The translations under genes and the position numbers were made by a program. From Trichaptum fuscoviolaceum (taxonomy: Eukaryota > Basidiomycota > Agaricomycetes > Hymenochaetales > Trichaptaceae), in NCBI GenBank assembly GCA_910574455.1, contig CAJSYZ010000010.1, forward strand, positions 772,770 through 836,769: 64,000 bases of DNA, in the 5' to 3' direction. Positions 15,375-38,701 of this stretch are shown here, one piece after another. The stretch's first letter is position 1. Every line of letters begins with the position of its first letter. The notes beneath the pieces are model-generated. The model was not told the DNA's origin and ran no database searches. It saw only the letters and a list, made by a program, of their open reading frames with translations.

Positions 15375-15861
15375 TTGGTCCCCTGCCCACGAGAACGAGG
15401 ATCACAGTTGGGCTTTAAGGCTGTGAGGTTCATAGGTGAAAATGATGGTTGAAAAGAGAGATGGTACGAGGGGGCCATTTTACACGACGCGGAAAATAAC
15501 AAATGATACGAGTGTATGAACTGCCAGTGGTGTACTACTATGTACTTGTAGTAAGCGCGAATGACTACTCAGGCTATTGAGGCGGCTAAGTACCACCAAA
15601 CAATTCAACGGCCACTGGCAGTCGCGTTCCACAACATAGACCACAACATGCGTAAGTGAGGCTCCTTCTAATAGACTCATAAACCAGTCGCTAGTAAGTT
15701 ACATTTATCTAACTACCGACCACCCAATAAATCAACGACTTATAGGCTCCTCCTCATCCAAATATCCATAATTGCACTCGCCCAGGCCGCTTCGCGTCCC
15801 AATCCCACCCATTCTACACATAGGTAGAGCGAGGAGGATCGACGAATACATCGTTGAAGCT
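15375..15861. other. Divergent promoter region of ERG2 and the second BTB gene
   Basis: No gene was seen. A 20-base stretch at 15672-15691 closely matches the end motif of the 31463-37396 element and is listed separately. Confidence 0.5.
15672..15691 (+). repeat. Solitary match to the transposon end motif
   Basis: TAGACTCATAAACCAGTCGC differs at two positions from TAGACTCGTAAACCAGTCGT at the left end of the 31463-37396 element. The sequence after it does not clearly continue the inverted repeat, so this is either a worn remnant or a binding-site-like fragment. Confidence 0.4.
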
Positions 15862-30454: not shown

Positions 30455-31556
30455 TTACTTGAGCTCCGGGAAGACTTGCTCAAAGGCTTTTTCGCACTTC
30501 TCGCGGAAGATAAAATCGGCGAAGCGATCATAGTTATTTGGTTCCGGGTCAAAAACCGCAATTTTCCCACCTCGTCTATGGATGCGGTATGCATGGCTTG
30601 ACGCAGGGTAAACCTGATGAGAAGCAATCAGCATGACTTTAGTTCGGATTTTCAAATGGCAGCGAGGGAACGAACCGTTGCAGATGTGCCTACTAGAAGA
30701 CACATGTCGGCTTTGAAGACGAGTTTATTGATCTCGTCGAGCTTGTATGGCTTCTCGTCGAAAAACACGACTCCAGGGCGGGCGATCGCACCACATTTTG
30801 GGCAGTGCGGAAGTTTTGACTCCGGTATGTCATTAGGCTTGGTTCCCGCATCTTGATAGCCCTTAAGCTTCGCTTCAGCCTCTCCCAGCGCCGGGCACAA
30901 GGACTCCGACAAGTCTTCTTCGCAGTAGTCGCACGCAGAACACTTCACATCGAACAACCTGCCATGCATCTCTATTATCGAATCTTTGGACACCTTCCCT
31001 GTGGAAGATATATCTGGTGATTGGGTAACCTCCTTTTCGAGATCTTCAAGTGTACGAAACGGACAGTCTGTCTACATTCTGGGTGATGAGATGAAAACTC
31101 TTCGCGCTCGGTGCGACAACTTTGAGATAACCCGGAATGGATAATTTGGCCAGTACCTTGTGTGCTCTGTTCGTTTTGGCTTCTAACGCTCTGAAAAATA
31201 TCAGATTTTCGTCAAGTCGACTTTTTTTGATACTACTCACTTTACTCTGCGATGATGATAAAACTGCCATACAAGGGATGGGTTAGCGGCAAAGGCACTT
31301 GGAGTGGCCAGTTGAAGGGGATCGAGAGACTGCCATATTCCTCCACCACTCCTGAATGTAGGAATACCTATACGAACGACTATTAGCTTCCTTGGGAGAA
31401 ATCAGTATATAAGAATCTATGTTCTTCATCTTCACCTGAACCAGCAGAAAGACCTGCACCGGCTAGACTCGTAAACCAGTCGTTACTGTTGATATGTTGA
31501 TGTAACGACTGGTACGACTCAATCATAAGTGGCCGAGTCACCTCAGAGCTCCCCAT
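30455..31556 (-). CDS. Sirtuin (SIRT5-like NAD-dependent deacylase), 5' end supplied by a transposon
   Basis: This minus-strand gene has several exons. NAD-binding motif [24 protein letters not shown], the catalytic histidine in [11 protein letters not shown], zinc cysteines in CSAC...CPKCGA, and LLVGTSATV are all present. FYHHRR supplies the Tyr-x-x-Arg pair that in SIRT5 binds succinyl/malonyl/glutaryl-lysine, so a deacylase of acidic acyl groups, usually mitochondrial, is likely. The first coding stretch, [20 protein letters not shown] and on to SLAG, is not sirtuin-like: it is read through the left inverted repeat (31463-31545) of the 5.9-kb element. No mitochondrial presequence is visible. 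The original first exon is therefore missing or displaced. Whether the chimeric start is used is unknown. Confidence 0.8.
31463..31545 (+). repeat. Left terminal inverted repeat, 83 bp
   Basis: Runs CTAGACTCGTAAACCAGTCG... inwards to ...GAGTCACCTCA. It matches the reverse complement of 37314-37396 at 72 of 83 positions; positions 41-60 are identical and most differences are in the central spacer. Within it, CCAGTCGTTAC and GTAACGACTGG face each other over a 15-base spacer, so each end carries two facing copies of one motif. Confidence 0.85.
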
Positions 31557-31744
31557 ATTTCCTAAAAAGTATTCACTCTTTAAGGAAGGACCCTAAGCTG
31601 TGGCTGTGAGAGTGAGAAAGTAAGACAAAACGAGTGCTAAAGTCACACGCGATTTGCGCCGGTCATAGGCGCGTCGCGCGCTTATACGCGTCTTTTTTCC
31701 TACCACAACGTACACCGACGTCGTATTTATGTCGTAGTTAATTT

Positions 31745-34588
31745 ATGCAGTATTCTACACCACTAAAGCGCCCATTAGGGGAGCGTAATCAAAACACATT
31801 CATTGATGCTACTCTAGGTGAAAAAAGAGCATATAGAAAAAAACCTAAACTCGAGAGTACGGTCGATCTGAGCACAGTAGCTGCGACACCAAACAGCTCG
31901 GGCGCATTGTCACAATCCGAGACTCCTTCGAGAGCGAGCGCGATACGTTATAATCTACCTGAGTTATCAGCTTCTCCGCACCCGAGCGTCCGAACGCACA
32001 GTGATCCAGTTTCGCAGCCTCCGACCCGCGCCCGCAAGCCCAATGCTGTCGAAGTCATAAATCATATTCATGACTACCTCCAGCGCAGCAACTGGACCCT
32101 CCACGGCTTCCTGGATGCGCTCCTAACGACTTCCGAACAGCAAATGTTGGCGTACGTCTCGCGGACCTTGAATAGCCATGGTGGCAAGCTGTTGGGTCAG
32201 ACGGAGAAGAGGTGTCCGGGTATGGTTCGGAAATGGGTGGACGCGTATGTCGAGCGTCAGGCGGAGAAGGAAGGAGAGGGGCTCGTAGCTGAGATGATGC
32301 CGTCTCAAGATCTCAGCTATCTGCTCGCCGGCTTCTCGATGTCTGGAATCATGACGCGGACGCAAGCACGCTGTCCTTTACTGTGGAGGTGCCTTCGTTC
32401 GACTGGTCTTCGGTCGAAAAAAGAGGGGGAATCACAGAGAAGGAACCGGGATTTGGTGCGTGTTTTTTTGGTCTTGAGGAATGGTATCCGGCTCATATAA
32501 TTTGTAGGTATATACGACAGTCATTTGCATGCTTGCGCAAGCGCGCAGCGAGCGCGCAAATTCATTCCAGGTCGTCCTGAGCTTCTGGCTCTTAGCAAAT
32601 GGTGCCTCAAGGGCACTTTTTAATGTCCTGCATCACGCAGGGCTATCTGTGAGCTACAATACGGCCGTCAAGAAGCTCAAGGACCTCTCAATAGAGCGTC
32701 TTCAACAAATTCAAGCCCTTGTCAAGAATACACCATTTCTCATCAACTGGGACAATCTGTGTCTCAGATACGATGTCACTGAACAGCGCAAGGATAATAA
32801 ATCACGTTTTCTATCCGGGACAACCTCTTCAATTATTGAACTCATCAACATTCGACCAGGCGACCTCAAATCGTCTTCGCTAGCACCCCGCATATATCGC
32901 CTACCTAATATACAGTTTACCACACAAGACCTGCGTCCTTCTCTGCAACAAGAGCAGCAGCTTCAAGCCTCAATGCTATTTCATATAATCGACTTATTAT
33001 TTCAATATTATCCATCTTTGAAGTCTTGCTTTTGCGAGCGTCCGACACCCCCGGTTGTGCAGCTTATACCTGTACATAAAACCGTCCACCACTCCCTTCC
33101 CTATCTTACAATCGACGAGTCTTCCATTGAAGGAACCCTCAAGATTATCGAAACTATTATTTGCTCAGTATTGCGAATGAGCGCAGCGGATTTGCAAAAA
33201 CATGGTATAATAATTTGTTCCGGGGATCTCTTGACGTTTTCCTTAATAGACAAGGTGTGTATATATGTCTGGTATCAATTCATTTCTTATTAACTCATTG
33301 TATTATATTATAAAGGCATGCGCTGCGCGCAGATGCGACGAGGATTTCGTCGATAACCTAAGCAAGTGGGTTGATAAATTACTCGGCCTTTTTCATGTCA
33401 AAATGGCTGGGACTCGAATGGTCGGAAATGAGTATTGGGGGAAGCCAAACGGACGAGCATTATGGTCCCTTTGGAAGGTGAACGAATTGCTCTGTCGACG
33501 GCCCATTATCTGTGGCTGGAAAGCATCGAAACCTGCAGCTTTCCAGCCATTGACCAAACTCATTTTGACTTTTGCTTTGCCGGCAAACGTCCTCGATGGC
33601 TGGCGTTTGGAATGCGGCAAGGATTCGCTGTCAGACTGGGTGAAGGACGTCAGCGACATGCAAGACATCAAAAATACCGCTGAGCGCATTTTTGCTCGAA
33701 TCGCGTCGCGTCAACGAGTAGCGAAAATGCGAAGGGAGCCTAGAGACGCTCGTGATCTGGTGTTGGAAAACATCACCTTATTCAACTCCGATGCCCTCAT
33801 CTTACTTGAATTCAAGTCCGCCATACGAGAAGGAGATATCGGACGCGTTCTTAATGTCCTGGCATATTGGATGGTCGAGTTTAGGGGGACGGGCTCGATG
33901 CCAAAATACGCGGATGCATTGTTCGAGACGCTTCAGACATTGAAGCAGATGGACCCCGTTCGGAGGTACTCTTTTTTTACCCGCACCCCCTTTTTTACGT
34001 TCGTATAACTGACTTTCTTGTACAAAAAAAGGGAGGCGCATCTTATGAACTGGTTAGTGAATACATCTGGGAAGCCCGGTCGATTCAAGGAACTCGATCT
34101 TCTGCAGGAGCACGAGAACTTCTACGTTAAAGTGAGTTTTTTTTTGCTTCATTGAAATTCGTTGACCTGCTGACATGTTTTATATTCATTATAGATGATC
34201 TACCAGGCACGGGGTGTTAATGAAAACGACGAATGGCTTAGAGTTGTTAGTCTATGTTTATGGGCTCTCCGTAGTGTCCTTACACGCGTTGGAGAAGAAT
34301 ATGAGGTCCCACGAAACGGGACCTCGCACACCTCTCCGCATACTCAAAAGGATATAGATAGCTTAACGGAATACTTGCTAACGCATTCTGTCCAATCTTT
34401 CTGTCCTGGACGAGGCACTGGCGACGATGTCCTTGAGGCCCGTGATTTCTACACCAAAGGCGTTAAGTACAGTAACTCGGCGAAGGCCTTTAAGACCTTC
34501 TTTCGAGACGCGAGGAAGGCCTTCTACAATGTAAGACCAGCGTCTTCACAAATGGCAGACAAGCGAGAACCAGAGTCAGAGTCAGAGT

Positions 34589-34629
<41 letters not shown>

Positions 34630-34755
34630 TCAGAGGACGAATCCGACGAGGAACTTACGCAGGAAGACCTGGAAGGCAAAGACCCAGAATTTGCATCAAC
34701 TATTGCGGCTGTCCGCGACTTGGCACGGAGCCTTGATCTTGGAGTAGACTCGTAA
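31745..34755 (+). CDS. DUF6589-type protein, candidate transposase of the element
   Basis: Five exons (31745-32455, 32508-33254, 33316-33965, 34032-34131, 34195-34755) give 922 residues with all frames joining. The N-terminal ~110 residues are basic/serine-rich and may bind DNA. A helical region follows (VINHIHDYLQRSNWTLHGFL). The core has LSVSYNTAVKKL, NWDNLCLRYDVTEQR (Asp at about 319), VVQLIPVHKTVHHS, CSGDLLTFSLIDK (Asp at about 477) and GLFHVKMAG (about 510-518), which I recognise as the DUF6589 pattern expanded in mushroom genomes. The spaced WDN and GDxLT aspartates recall a DDE nuclease, but that is inference. The C-terminus has a Glu-Pro repeat and acidic tail. The stop codon lies inside an internal copy of the transposon end motif. 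The frame is intact, unlike the partner helicase. Confidence 0.82.
34567..34635 (+). repeat. Hexanucleotide repeat encoding Glu-Pro/Glu-Ser
   Basis: Tandem GAACCA and GAGTCA units inside the last DUF6589 exon give alternating EP and ES dipeptides before an acidic tail. Length polymorphism between copies would be expected. Confidence 0.8.
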
Positions 34756-34765
34756 ACCAGTCGTT
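34745..34765 (+). repeat. Internal copy of the transposon end motif
   Basis: These 21 bases are identical to the left terminal repeat at 31464-31484 and in the same orientation, reading TAGACTCGTAAACCAGTCGT plus one T. The match covers the last codons and TAA stop of the DUF6589 gene. Identity stops sharply after it. Confidence 0.8.
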
Positions 34766-34897
34766 TGGTAGTACATACTTACTTGGTACGCATGTTCAAT
34801 GACATTCACGGAAGACAACATCTGACTCTATCTACGAAGGAATTTACTTATTGTTATATATTTTATCAAAGTCACACAAGACTACGCTTCCATTAGG

Positions 34898-37151
34898 TCA
34901 AAATATATTGAAGGCACAAGGTCTACAAATTAAGATTAAGAACAAGGTTTCCATGCCGGACTTGCGTACCGGCATTGGTACGTGTAACCTGACTTCCTCC
35001 CATGTCCTTCGATCCCCACCCCCCTCATCCTTGTCTTTGTTTAATTCATCTTCAGTGTCTTCTCGGGCGATATGATCTTCATCATATTTCTTGTAGATAT
35101 CCTGGAGTTCAATGAAGAGCTCGCGACAGCGATTGTTTGGAGTGGTGAAAGGGTCTACGAGAGACACCATGCCATCAGCCCAACGGACCCTTGTTAAAAG
35201 GTCAGTCTCCGATGAGACTCGCTTGCCTTGTGAGGCAAGTTTATCGATGATATCATCATCTAGGAGGGACTCGGCCGTGGCGAGGTGGGAGCCAGGATGC
35301 TCTCGTTCAAGTAAGCGGTCTCTCCACGCAACCAGACGCTCTTTTGCATATGCGCGGAACTCTTCGGTCACAGCAGTGCGCCGACCCCGTTTCAAGCCCG
35401 GTTTTTTTTCGAGCTTGATATCTTCCATGGGGAATGCTTCAGGGTTGCAGTTGGAACAGCAAAGGGCCTGAGGGTCGTCTTTATAAAGCATGTTTACTTT
35501 ATAGATGAGACGAACTAATGAGATCGATGGTGAGCTATGCTCTATGTTATGAAAGTGATAGTTACTCACCTTTTCTTTGGTTCTCGAAATACTTATTCCA
35601 GACTTTGCGCAAGCAAGACGAAATATTAGCATACAGCGTGAGGTATGCATCCTCTAGTCGCTCATTTCTCGGCTTGGCTCTTTTACGTGAGTTCGGGCCG
35701 TCTGGTCCTTCTACAGCTTCTTCTCTCTCACCCTCACCGATACGTTCGACACGGCTCCCACCCTCATCAACGTGTCTGATCTCCTGATCGTTAGCCTCCA
35801 CGGCATTCTCAATCTCCATCCTATCTTCGCCATCAAATTCAATGGTGAGTGGTTCGTCGTCTTCGCACTCTATCTGCGACTGAAGCTTGCTAACTTCTGG
35901 CGAGGTTAGTTTCTCTTTTGTAGTGCTCTTTCGGACTATCACGATAGCCTCGCCGATGCTTGACATGTCCCGCGCTGCTCGCCCTGCCCGCTGAACCAAA
36001 GAACTAAACGTGTAAGGTAAGTCCCACAGAACCACGCGTTTGATATTCCGAAGATCACATCCCTTGATGAGGAAGGGTGAGTGATTCCCATTTGCTTCAC
36101 GTTTTCAATATGCTCACCATACCAATGGCGTCTGTACAGACTAATATTCTGACTTCGCCTTTGCAAAGTCTTTCTTCAATGGATCTCTTTTCTTTCTGAC
36201 CAACCAGTGCATGGTAATATGCAATGGTATGTTTGTTCGAGTTCGGTGGTGCGTATTCCTTTAATTTATCACATATGTCTTCGCAGGTCGGACGCTTGTT
36301 TACATAGATCAAGGTAATTGGAATGTCTTGCGGTCCCTTTGCATCACGTGGAATTGTGAATCGTAAGTCCGCAAACGAGCCCTCCTCGTACTGCATCTTC
36401 CTTGTTGATAACACAATATTCTTCCTTTCGTTCGTCAGAGCTATCAGAGCAGCTCCGACACCAATATTGAGCTCCTTTTTCACGATATCAAGTACATGCG
36501 CCGGCAGAGTTGCCGAAGCCACTACAAATGGTATGGTTCTCGCGATCCGTCCCCGTAGAACACCAATCTTACTATACTCCGTGCGGAAGGAGCTCCCCCA
36601 GTCAGCGATACAATGAGCCTCATCGACGATGACACATTGAAGACGTTTTTGAAGGGTTTTTTTTTGATAAGACAGCTATTCCGAACTCTTTCGAGTTCGC
36701 AATCTCCGGTGAGACAATTACTCGTCGGAATTTACCCCTGATGATGTCCTGATCACTCTATTTAGATATCAAGAGCTCTGGACTAACTGTAAGTCCTCAC
36801 CTGATACACTTGCTCTTTAGATGTTCGTTCGAACGTCTCCGAGCATACAGCTATCGTTGAGATCGGGCCATTTTCCATTTGTTCGATCATGAGGCTTTGT
36901 AATGGAGAAACAACTATAGCAATGGCTTCTGGATCCATAAGCAATGCTAACGTAAATGCCATAGTCTTTCCACTGCCCGTGCCTACGTCGAGCACAACAT
37001 CCCGACCCTTCAAGATAGCTTCGGCTGTGTCTATTTGCCAGTCGAAAGGCTCTTTTCCAAAAGCCTGTCGGGCAAGTGACTTTAATGCACCTCTATTGAC
37101 TGTTACGTTCTCGTAGGTCTTCATAGCAAGTAGATAGTAAAGATGTAGCAT
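34898..37151 (-). CDS. RecQ-like DNA helicase of the element (frameshifted as read)
   Basis: Minus-strand gene of about four exons. The Walker A motif DVGTGSGKTM (GTGSGKT at about residues 57-63), VSPLQSLM, the DEAH box with the RecQ continuation VIVDEAHCIADWGSSFR, ASATLP, TLIYVNKR, GEVRILVCTDAIGM and QRAGRAARD (motif VI) form both RecA lobes. A charged C-terminal region follows with no recognisable RQC or HRDC domain. The region after VSPEIANSKEFGIAVLSKK changes frame at a run of nine A (plus-strand T at 36657-36665): one base fewer would join it to LQKRLQCVIVDEAH. This is either a real inactivating mutation or a homopolymer error. The start could also be the internal Met at 37124. RecQ enzymes unwind 3'-5'; here the role may be to process transposition intermediates. 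Confidence 0.8.
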
Positions 37152-37313
37152 AAAATCTGCATGTATTCGCTATCTGATTCTAATACAAGTTGAATTTCAA
37201 AAAAAAAAAAAGAGTGACCGGGACTCGGGAAGCCACCGGCAACTTGAGAACCCTGTGAAAATTTGCCACCACTAAGCTGAATAATCAGGCACACTGTGAC
37301 CCATCGGTCACAA

Positions 37314-37396
37314 TGAGGTGACTGGGCTACTTGTGATTGAGTCGTACCAGTCGTTACATAAACTCAACACTAGTAACGACTGGCTTGCGAGTCTAG
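37314..37396 (-). repeat. Right terminal inverted repeat, 83 bp
   Basis: The partner of 31463-31545. It keeps the palindromic pair CCAGTCGTTAC / GTAACGACTGG and an identical 20-base core. The repeat ends at the outer CTAG (37393-37396). Confidence 0.85.
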
Positions 37397-37850
37397 GGCT
37401 AGTTATATCCCTGCTCTTCAGATGGCTCTCGATGTCAAACGGCGGGCGTCACATCTTTGCATGGTTGGAACTAAACCGGATCTCATCCCAGGAGTTTACT
37501 CCCTTATTGATGTTAATACTCGAAGTTTTCGCCCACGCCTCGAATATGAACATAAACTGCCATATTTTACCGTTAGTCCAATACACGGTGACGGTATGGA
37601 GGAACTGCGTCGGTTCGCTAGTATGTACTTTCAAATTCTCTCAAATATTTGTCCTCATGCTCTCTTAGTCAGCATTGTGCACCCGCTTGGACTTGGTGTA
37701 CGCAAGGAGTGGTTCTCTTCCCTCAAAATGTTTTTCGAGAAGATGGAGACGTGGGTATTAGACACTATTGCCATTATGTTCTCCCTTCCATTACCCAAGA
37801 ACGTGAATGAAAAGGTGGTGTCAACTATTGAGGTTTATTAGAGACTCGGA
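37397..37850. other. Right flank of the element, no certain gene
   Basis: A plus-strand frame at 37422-37841 (139 codons) reads smoothly but I recognise no family and see no link to the gene that follows. On the minus strand, just outside the element, HLKSRDITS could be the lost sirtuin strand before LAGAG, but a stop lies close upstream in that frame. Confidence 0.35.
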
Positions 37851-38701
37851 ATGTACCTGATTTGTTCAAAGACGCCAGATACTTTGGAGCTCACCGACGA
37901 TACAGTAAAGGACCTGCTTTATGCGCCATACTCACGGAACTGGGACAAGATGATGGCCGAAAGGCATAAGAATCACAAAGTGTACAAGACTGGTCTTACG
38001 GCTTATAGGATAACTCCAACACTGATCGCCAAATATTTCTCCCGATCGGAAGCTGCGAATATGGAATACGTACGCAAGCAGACTAAGATACCGGTCCCTC
38101 AACCGCGATACCCTCATCTCAAAGAGTATATGGTGATGGACTTCGTCGAAGGAAGAACACTCCTAGAATGCTGGGAAGACCTTAGTGCATTCATGAAGTT
38201 TCGCATAGCCTGCACCTTGCGAACTTACTTGATGCAGCTACGTCGACTCACTCGTGACATTCCTGGTACCGTGGATGGGGGGATTGTTAGTGGAATGCTT
38301 TTCGAGAATGAGCCTTACGGTCCATTCGATTCCCCCGATCGATTCCGAGCATGGTGCGAGATGATTGCTTGTACGGGATGGGGTAGATATGTCAGAAGCC
38401 TCAAGATGCAAAACCCTGATCACCCAGGTGTATTGCCTCCGACAATTGACGATAATTGGCTACCTTACGTATTTGCTCACCACGACTTACACCTTGGAAA
38501 TATAATCCTTGCTGATGATGGGACATTGTGGCTGATTGACTGGTCATACAGTGGCTTCTTTCCTCGGTGTATGGAATCCGTCGTCTTAGGATTTTACTCC
38601 GATGCTGGAATCGCTATAGGAGGTTTATAGCAGGGGTGTTCCCGTCGTATGACAAGTTTTGGGGTTTCTTCGCAGACGACGTACACCGTTACAGGCAATG
38701 A
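37851..38701 (+). pseudogene. Aminoglycoside-phosphotransferase-like kinase with a 3' frameshift
   Basis: The open frame from the ATG at 37851 runs to a stop at 38628-38630. It shows the small-molecule kinase pattern of agaric APH-domain proteins: MVMDFVEGRTLLECW in the hinge, the catalytic HHDLHLGNIIL (Asp and Asn of the Brenner motif) and LIDWSYSGFFP in the metal-binding position. After VLGFYSDAG the expected C-terminus continues in another frame, as RYRRFIAGVFPSYDKFW, to a TGA at 38699-38701. A single missing base near 38604 explains this. The kinase core is intact, so a truncated but active protein is possible. It sits 455 bases from the transposon end. Substrate is unknown. Confidence 0.65.

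Follow-up and report, generated by a model that had tools for sequence, protein, structure and literature searches.

We describe here a two-gene DNA transposon of the fungus Trichaptum fuscoviolaceum, found in a window of 64,000 nucleotides that was analysed as a whole (GenBank assembly GCA_910574455.1, contig CAJSYZ010000010.1, positions 772,770 to 836,769 of the forward strand; coordinates without a contig label are those of the window). The element is enclosed by an 83-bp inverted repeat whose arms, at 31463-31545 and 37314-37396, agree in 72 of 83 positions, and between these a gene for a DUF6589 protein on the plus strand converges with a RecQ-like helicase gene on the minus strand. In our judgement it is very probably a slightly decayed member of one of this genome's groups of such transposons, which number at least four and are deeply diverged, and the AcademH lineage is where it most likely belongs. 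We found that the unit of inverted-repeat ends, DUF6589 gene and convergent RecQ-like gene inserts whole, duplicating 9 bp of its target.

Evidence for the unit comes in part from the pairing of the two genes across the window's own genome, which comprises 59.1 Mb in 12 contigs (here C1 to C12, with loci given as contig and position). Searches with PF20231 returned 42 matches that were grouped into 23 DUF6589 loci, although an N-terminal piece at C1:3736597 and a locus without that part 11 kb away (C1:3724787) are perhaps one split gene. The helicase core of the window copy, used as query, gave 23 matches genome-wide, and a core match lies within about 4 kb of 16 of the 23 DUF6589 loci, in each case on the opposite strand and in convergent orientation. 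With queries from several families, helicase coding pieces were found on the opposite strand at 21/23 DUF6589 loci and on the same strand at none, a count that includes self-matches as the query pieces were taken from seven of the 23 loci, the core count of 16/23 being independent; no helicase pieces were seen in the examined DNA around C3:169994 and C1:3736597. The two genes have also diverged together under purifying selection. Distances among DUF6589 proteins and among helicases are closely correlated over 16 pairs (Mantel r 0.972, with none of 9999 permutations as high), and both trees contain the identical four groups (A to D). Outside the window copy's own family, C, identity to it drops to 21-27% for DUF6589 and 25-36% for the helicase, so that the association is an old one. 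Both proteins appear to be kept by purifying selection, with dN/dS in 10 pairs among five family-C copies at 0.08-0.19 (a DUF6589 exon) and 0.14-0.25 (the helicase core); the pairs are non-independent, and dS, at 0.25-1.46, is high in some. In two other groups dS was saturated, save for one comparison (0.08). In this genome 16 of the 22 RecQ-like loci found with this query are transposon cargo and not host repair genes.

Evidence of mobility comes from the ends and the insertion sites. Self-comparison of merged loci revealed that 10 of the 15 other pairs lie between outer inverted repeats, 28-417 bp long and with identity reaching 100%, and three copies, one each on C1, C7 and C9, share 99.4-99.5% identity across 5.7-5.9 kb. 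A 9-bp target duplication is present at 6 of the 11 inverted-repeat pairs examined, the window being among the 11 and the duplication at C5:5837360, offset by one base, among the six. Short copies with the ends of the window family have duplications of 9-10 bp in 6/7 cases, and none was seen in one with a partial right end. The element termini begin with CA or TA, and the duplications, 9-10 bp long, vary in sequence; re-examination of the tips covered the 12 sites already showing a duplication, plus the window. The joined flanks of 12 insertions were compared with the genome to find empty sites (with scores for 40 of 76 candidates, absence carries little weight), and for 4/12 a paralogous match spans the junction, one per insertion being read letter by letter. 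For the two-gene element at C4:5415265-5421089 the empty site is identical at 127/131 bases, without gaps, and holds a single copy of the 9-bp target GGTCAAGCA. The empty-site match of a 411-bp copy on C3 is 130/131, that of the C10:2189494 copy differs at 1/9 target bases and has a 6-base gap elsewhere, and that of the two-gene element at C1:327782, at 89% with a 3-base gap within the target, is weaker evidence. A paralogous empty site for the window insertion was not found in this genome. These results bear on an earlier note about the window, which had described the 83-bp repeat (72/83) around convergent DUF6589 and RecQ-like genes and had proposed that the two make up one transposon with defined ends. 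The repeat and its gene content were confirmed by self-match of the sequence and by domain hits, and the proposal gains support from the pairing, inverted repeats and 9-bp duplications. Within this one genome the two genes are closer than chance would place them (16/23 convergent pairs, with matching trees), and ends of this kind do flank other such pairs, namely ten.

Many short copies carry the family ends as well. In the genome the 22-bp end of the window family, at two mismatches or fewer, occurs 222 times (106 + 116; a reversed control pattern gave 0, and individual places are known for the first 100 matches), which far exceeds what some eight family-C DUF6589 loci could supply. An exact pattern returned 17 miniatures no longer than 73 bp, and together with two from the first pattern 19 were read, of 45-76 bp. 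A duplication of at least 9 bp abuts 14 of the 19 within one base and three have none; in L096 and L098 a 9-bp duplication stands three bases (TAC, TAG) away from the left tip. Among the 17 miniatures, 15 of 16 different interiors are single and the remaining one occurs twice with identical flanks (L104 and L108, copies of a single duplicated insertion with interior and flanks in common). Because nearly all interiors differ, the 45-76-bp miniatures are probably individually formed deletion products, which is no proof that a 45-bp unit can jump. We do not claim that copies of this size move as such, as internal deletion after insertion explains the differing interiors equally well. One short copy (L088, C3:351020) lies in a host site that is itself a repeat, with at least 13 other places on C3 that are 78-99% identical.

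A second feature of the ends is a subterminal palindrome. The best inverted repeat in the first 160 end bases begins at position 12 for family A, 9-12 for B, 12 for D and 12/13 for C, and CCAG lies within its left arm in families A, C and D. It stands out against 30 shuffles at both A ends, at all four C ends tested and at the left end of B_C11; in the window copy the left palindrome scores 12 against a maximum of 9.5 in the shuffles, and the right one 11 against 9. The palindrome at the D left end is barely above the 30 shuffles, those at the D right end and three other B ends are not above them, and in A3 the best inverted repeat is found elsewhere in the end and is not significant.

The features of the window copy are collected in the table below. 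Since short copies with duplications of 9-10 bp fix the tips, the true ends of the element are most likely T 31464 and A 37395 (TAGACTCG...CGAGTCTA). A 6-bp overlap of the flanks, GGCTAG, was considered as a target duplication and dropped, being out of register with the ends of other copies. The helicase gene is bracketed by the right end and an internal copy of the left terminus, and a related internal copy (at most four mismatches) is found at or close to where the DUF6589 coding sequence ends in 6/7 family-C loci examined, the window included; none was seen in nine compared elements of other families.

Features of the two-gene element in the window (positions in the window; strand; basis of assignment)
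Feature	Position	Strand	Basis
Left arm of terminal inverted repeat, 83 bp (most likely true start 31464, TAGACTCG)	31463..31545	+	72/83 against right arm; short copies
Left-end subterminal palindrome, arms 31475-31486 and 31502-31513 (ACCAGTCGTTAC / GTAACGACTGGT)	31475..31513	+	End positions 12-23 and 39-50
DUF6589 gene, putative transposase	31748..34755	+	PF20231 matches; exons by eye
Candidate catalytic D1 (DN)	32751..32753	+	Invariant in 12/12 aligned proteins
Candidate catalytic D2	33225..33227	+	Invariant in 12/12
GxxH motif between D2 and E	33385..33396	+	G and H invariant in 12/12
Candidate catalytic E, followed by GDxGR at 33832-33846	33808..33810	+	E invariant in 12/12
12-nt tandem repeats encoding acidic E/P/S-rich tail near DUF6589 C-terminus	34554..34646	+	Sequence repeats
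Internal 21-bp exact copy of left terminus, overlapping DUF6589 stop codon	34745..34765	+	Self-comparison of window
RecQ-like helicase gene, several exons (limits are those of the open reading frames)	34898..37169	-	DEAD and Helicase_C domains; TIGR00614
Right-end subterminal palindrome	37347..37383	-	End positions 13-23 and 39-49
Right arm of terminal inverted repeat (most likely true end 37395)	37314..37396	-	Match to left arm; short copies

Terminus-like sequences were also observed in other settings. A lone one, with two mismatches, lies at 15672-15692 of the window and agrees with the C8 element's internal copy at all 21 bases; apart from it the rest of the window has no similarity to the element. 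At the two-gene element L031 (C5:4452194) an inverted terminus-like sequence abuts the left boundary, and at C12:2484683-2493236 (L004, L002), a rearranged copy, two family termini that point the same way and are separated by 5.5 kb flank a DUF6589 gene, while a partial match to the helicase core lies about 6.6 kb off on the strand that also carries DUF6589. As for neighbouring genes, a SIR2-family gene on the minus strand (30652-31462; PF02146, E 1.8e-13) encodes a motif that abuts the left end of the element, and as no N-terminal exons of it were recognised by eye on the far side, the insertion may have split this gene. Immediately to the right of the element, at 37842-38630, lies a sequence for an APH phosphotransferase-domain protein (PF01636, E 1.9e-07).

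The model PF20231 (DUF6589; IPR046496 in InterPro) matches plus-strand exons of the window with E values of 6.4e-19 and 1.9e-54. Five exons were assigned, with splice sites read by eye (31748-32455, 32508-33254, 33316-~33966, ~34032-34131 and ~34195-34755), and the end of the first and the start of the second are the same in the C7, C8 and C12 copies. Because D, D and E are invariant in this order in 12/12 aligned proteins, DUF6589 can be regarded as a putative DDE-type transposase and as the candidate catalytic subunit. No relatives of the DUF6589 alignment were confirmed in viral contigs or prokaryote genomes. To name DUF6589 as the transposase of such elements seems to be a new step, unprinted in the literature searched, from which DUF6589 is absent as a name and in which the string PF20231 occurs only in papers unrelated by title; a family of unknown function thereby gains a probable function. 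On the helicase side, DEAD and Helicase_C domains were found on the minus strand of the element. The best family for the core exon is TIGR00614 (E 7.7e-22), as it is for the longer open frame of the C8 copy (E 1.5e-26), both below the curated whole-protein cut-off of the model, and the best match of the C8-copy helicase in the PDB is RecQ (E 9.6e-16).

We propose a mechanism in which DUF6589, with D 32751, D 33225 and E 33808 as the candidate triad of a DDE-type transposase, would bind the ends, perhaps sitting as a dimer on the subterminal palindrome, and would then cut them and join them to a target staggered by 9 bp. The palindrome is a candidate dimer binding site or hairpin and thus a possible substrate of the RecQ helicase, which might open the palindromic ends, or alternatively unwind strands during transfer or gap repair. 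A more far-reaching proposal, to which we give little weight, is that DUF6589 founds its own transposase superfamily and that the helicase partner makes transposition partly replicative. Copying would begin at one palindromic end with a template switch to the other, and each abort would leave a new hairpin remnant of 45-76 bp, differing in size and with a 9-bp duplication; such a process would explain why miniature interiors are nearly unique.

Several observations weigh against our main reading. The evidence base is one genome; no outer inverted repeat was found in the examined DNA of C1:3724787, C1:5448554, C9:936134, C11:3372048 or C8:146850; and 5 of the 11 inverted pairs are without duplication, the window copy included (at C9:2119512 the far end lies outside the examined DNA, and at C7:549233, C5:4452194 and C4:4572969 the tips are unclear). 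Seven helicase matches out of 23 (six loci by position, with five of the seven matches partial) lack a DUF6589 match within 4 kb, and comparison of DUF6589 with solved structures and other Pfam families up to E 10 gave only weak matches at chance level. The window copy itself has no 9-bp target duplication at its ends, so that a flank may have been deleted or rearranged. Its helicase frame is also broken at a homopolymer run near 36657-36665, possibly an assembly error; in the C7 and C8 copies the frame is open at this site. The missing duplication, together with ends that are common to many short repeats, would suit an explanation by neighbouring host gene families or a segmental duplication, with inverted repeats supplied by unrelated miniature elements. 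We nevertheless give that explanation almost no credence given the convergent pairing at 16-21 of 23 loci, the matching trees, the 9-bp duplications and the two-gene empty site. Strand pairing and matching trees rule out chance neighbours for the family, though not for the individual history of the window copy.

A more serious alternative, though one we consider unlikely, is that these elements form a separate superfamily of DNA transposons, in which the DUF6589 transposase is unrelated to Academ and both the RecQ helicase and the 9-bp duplications were gained independently. The convergence of the two genes on opposite strands, the absence of DUF6589 from the searched literature and its failure to link convincingly to anything else up to E 10 are all consistent with such an origin, and because of this last result both the role of DUF6589 as transposase and its connection with Academ are put forward here as inferred. 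However, a helicase and duplications of 9-10 bp are reported traits of AcademH, which is known from Basidiomycota. The AcademH paper is reportedly that of Kojima (2020, Mobile DNA 11:15), known to us through citing papers. In those papers AcademH is described as encoding a helicase and making target duplications of 9 or 10 bp (PMC10045372), and as occurring in Basidiomycota, Ascomycota and Mucoromycota (PMC10799480). Of these features the helicase partner is present here as a RecQ-family core convergent with DUF6589, and the duplication is present in the family and absent from the window copy. We thus file the element as probably AcademH because both features fit, membership being based on these and not on homology of the transposase.

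The window element is therefore probably no new kind of transposon, and the earlier note, which knew of no description of the pair as one transposon, is not supported on this point, as AcademH and KolobokH are published fungal DNA transposons with a helicase. KolobokH, a DDE-type DNA transposon of the Kolobok kind that encodes RecQ and has been found only in fungi, shares with our putatively DDE-type element a fungal host and a RecQ helicase, but has TTAA duplications, Kolobok termini of the form 5'-RR and YY-3', and RecQ downstream of the transposase domain (PMC9587614). In the present elements the duplications are of 9-10 bp and varied, the termini begin with CA or TA, and the helicase is a convergent gene whose pieces are on the opposite strand at 21/21 loci having one; the C/DxxH motif of KolobokH between the second D and E is replaced by GxxH in 12/12 proteins, if D2 and E are correctly named. 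Identity with KolobokH was rejected on the duplications and is very improbable. Similar to Helitrons, which use an HUH nuclease, our element holds a helicase within a transposon. Helitrons also have a palindrome near one end, a further likeness, but are not known to have inverted ends or target duplications, and as inverted ends and 9-bp duplications are present here a Helitron identity was rejected. In the mushroom Marasmius oreades, widespread non-autonomous copies were assigned to Academ (PMC8290104), a likeness in description to the many short copies of the present genome. The function of a RecQ helicase in DNA transposition is a question common to AcademH and KolobokH, and one that this genome makes practical to address, with its hundreds of ends, its empty sites and near-identical copies spread over three contigs.

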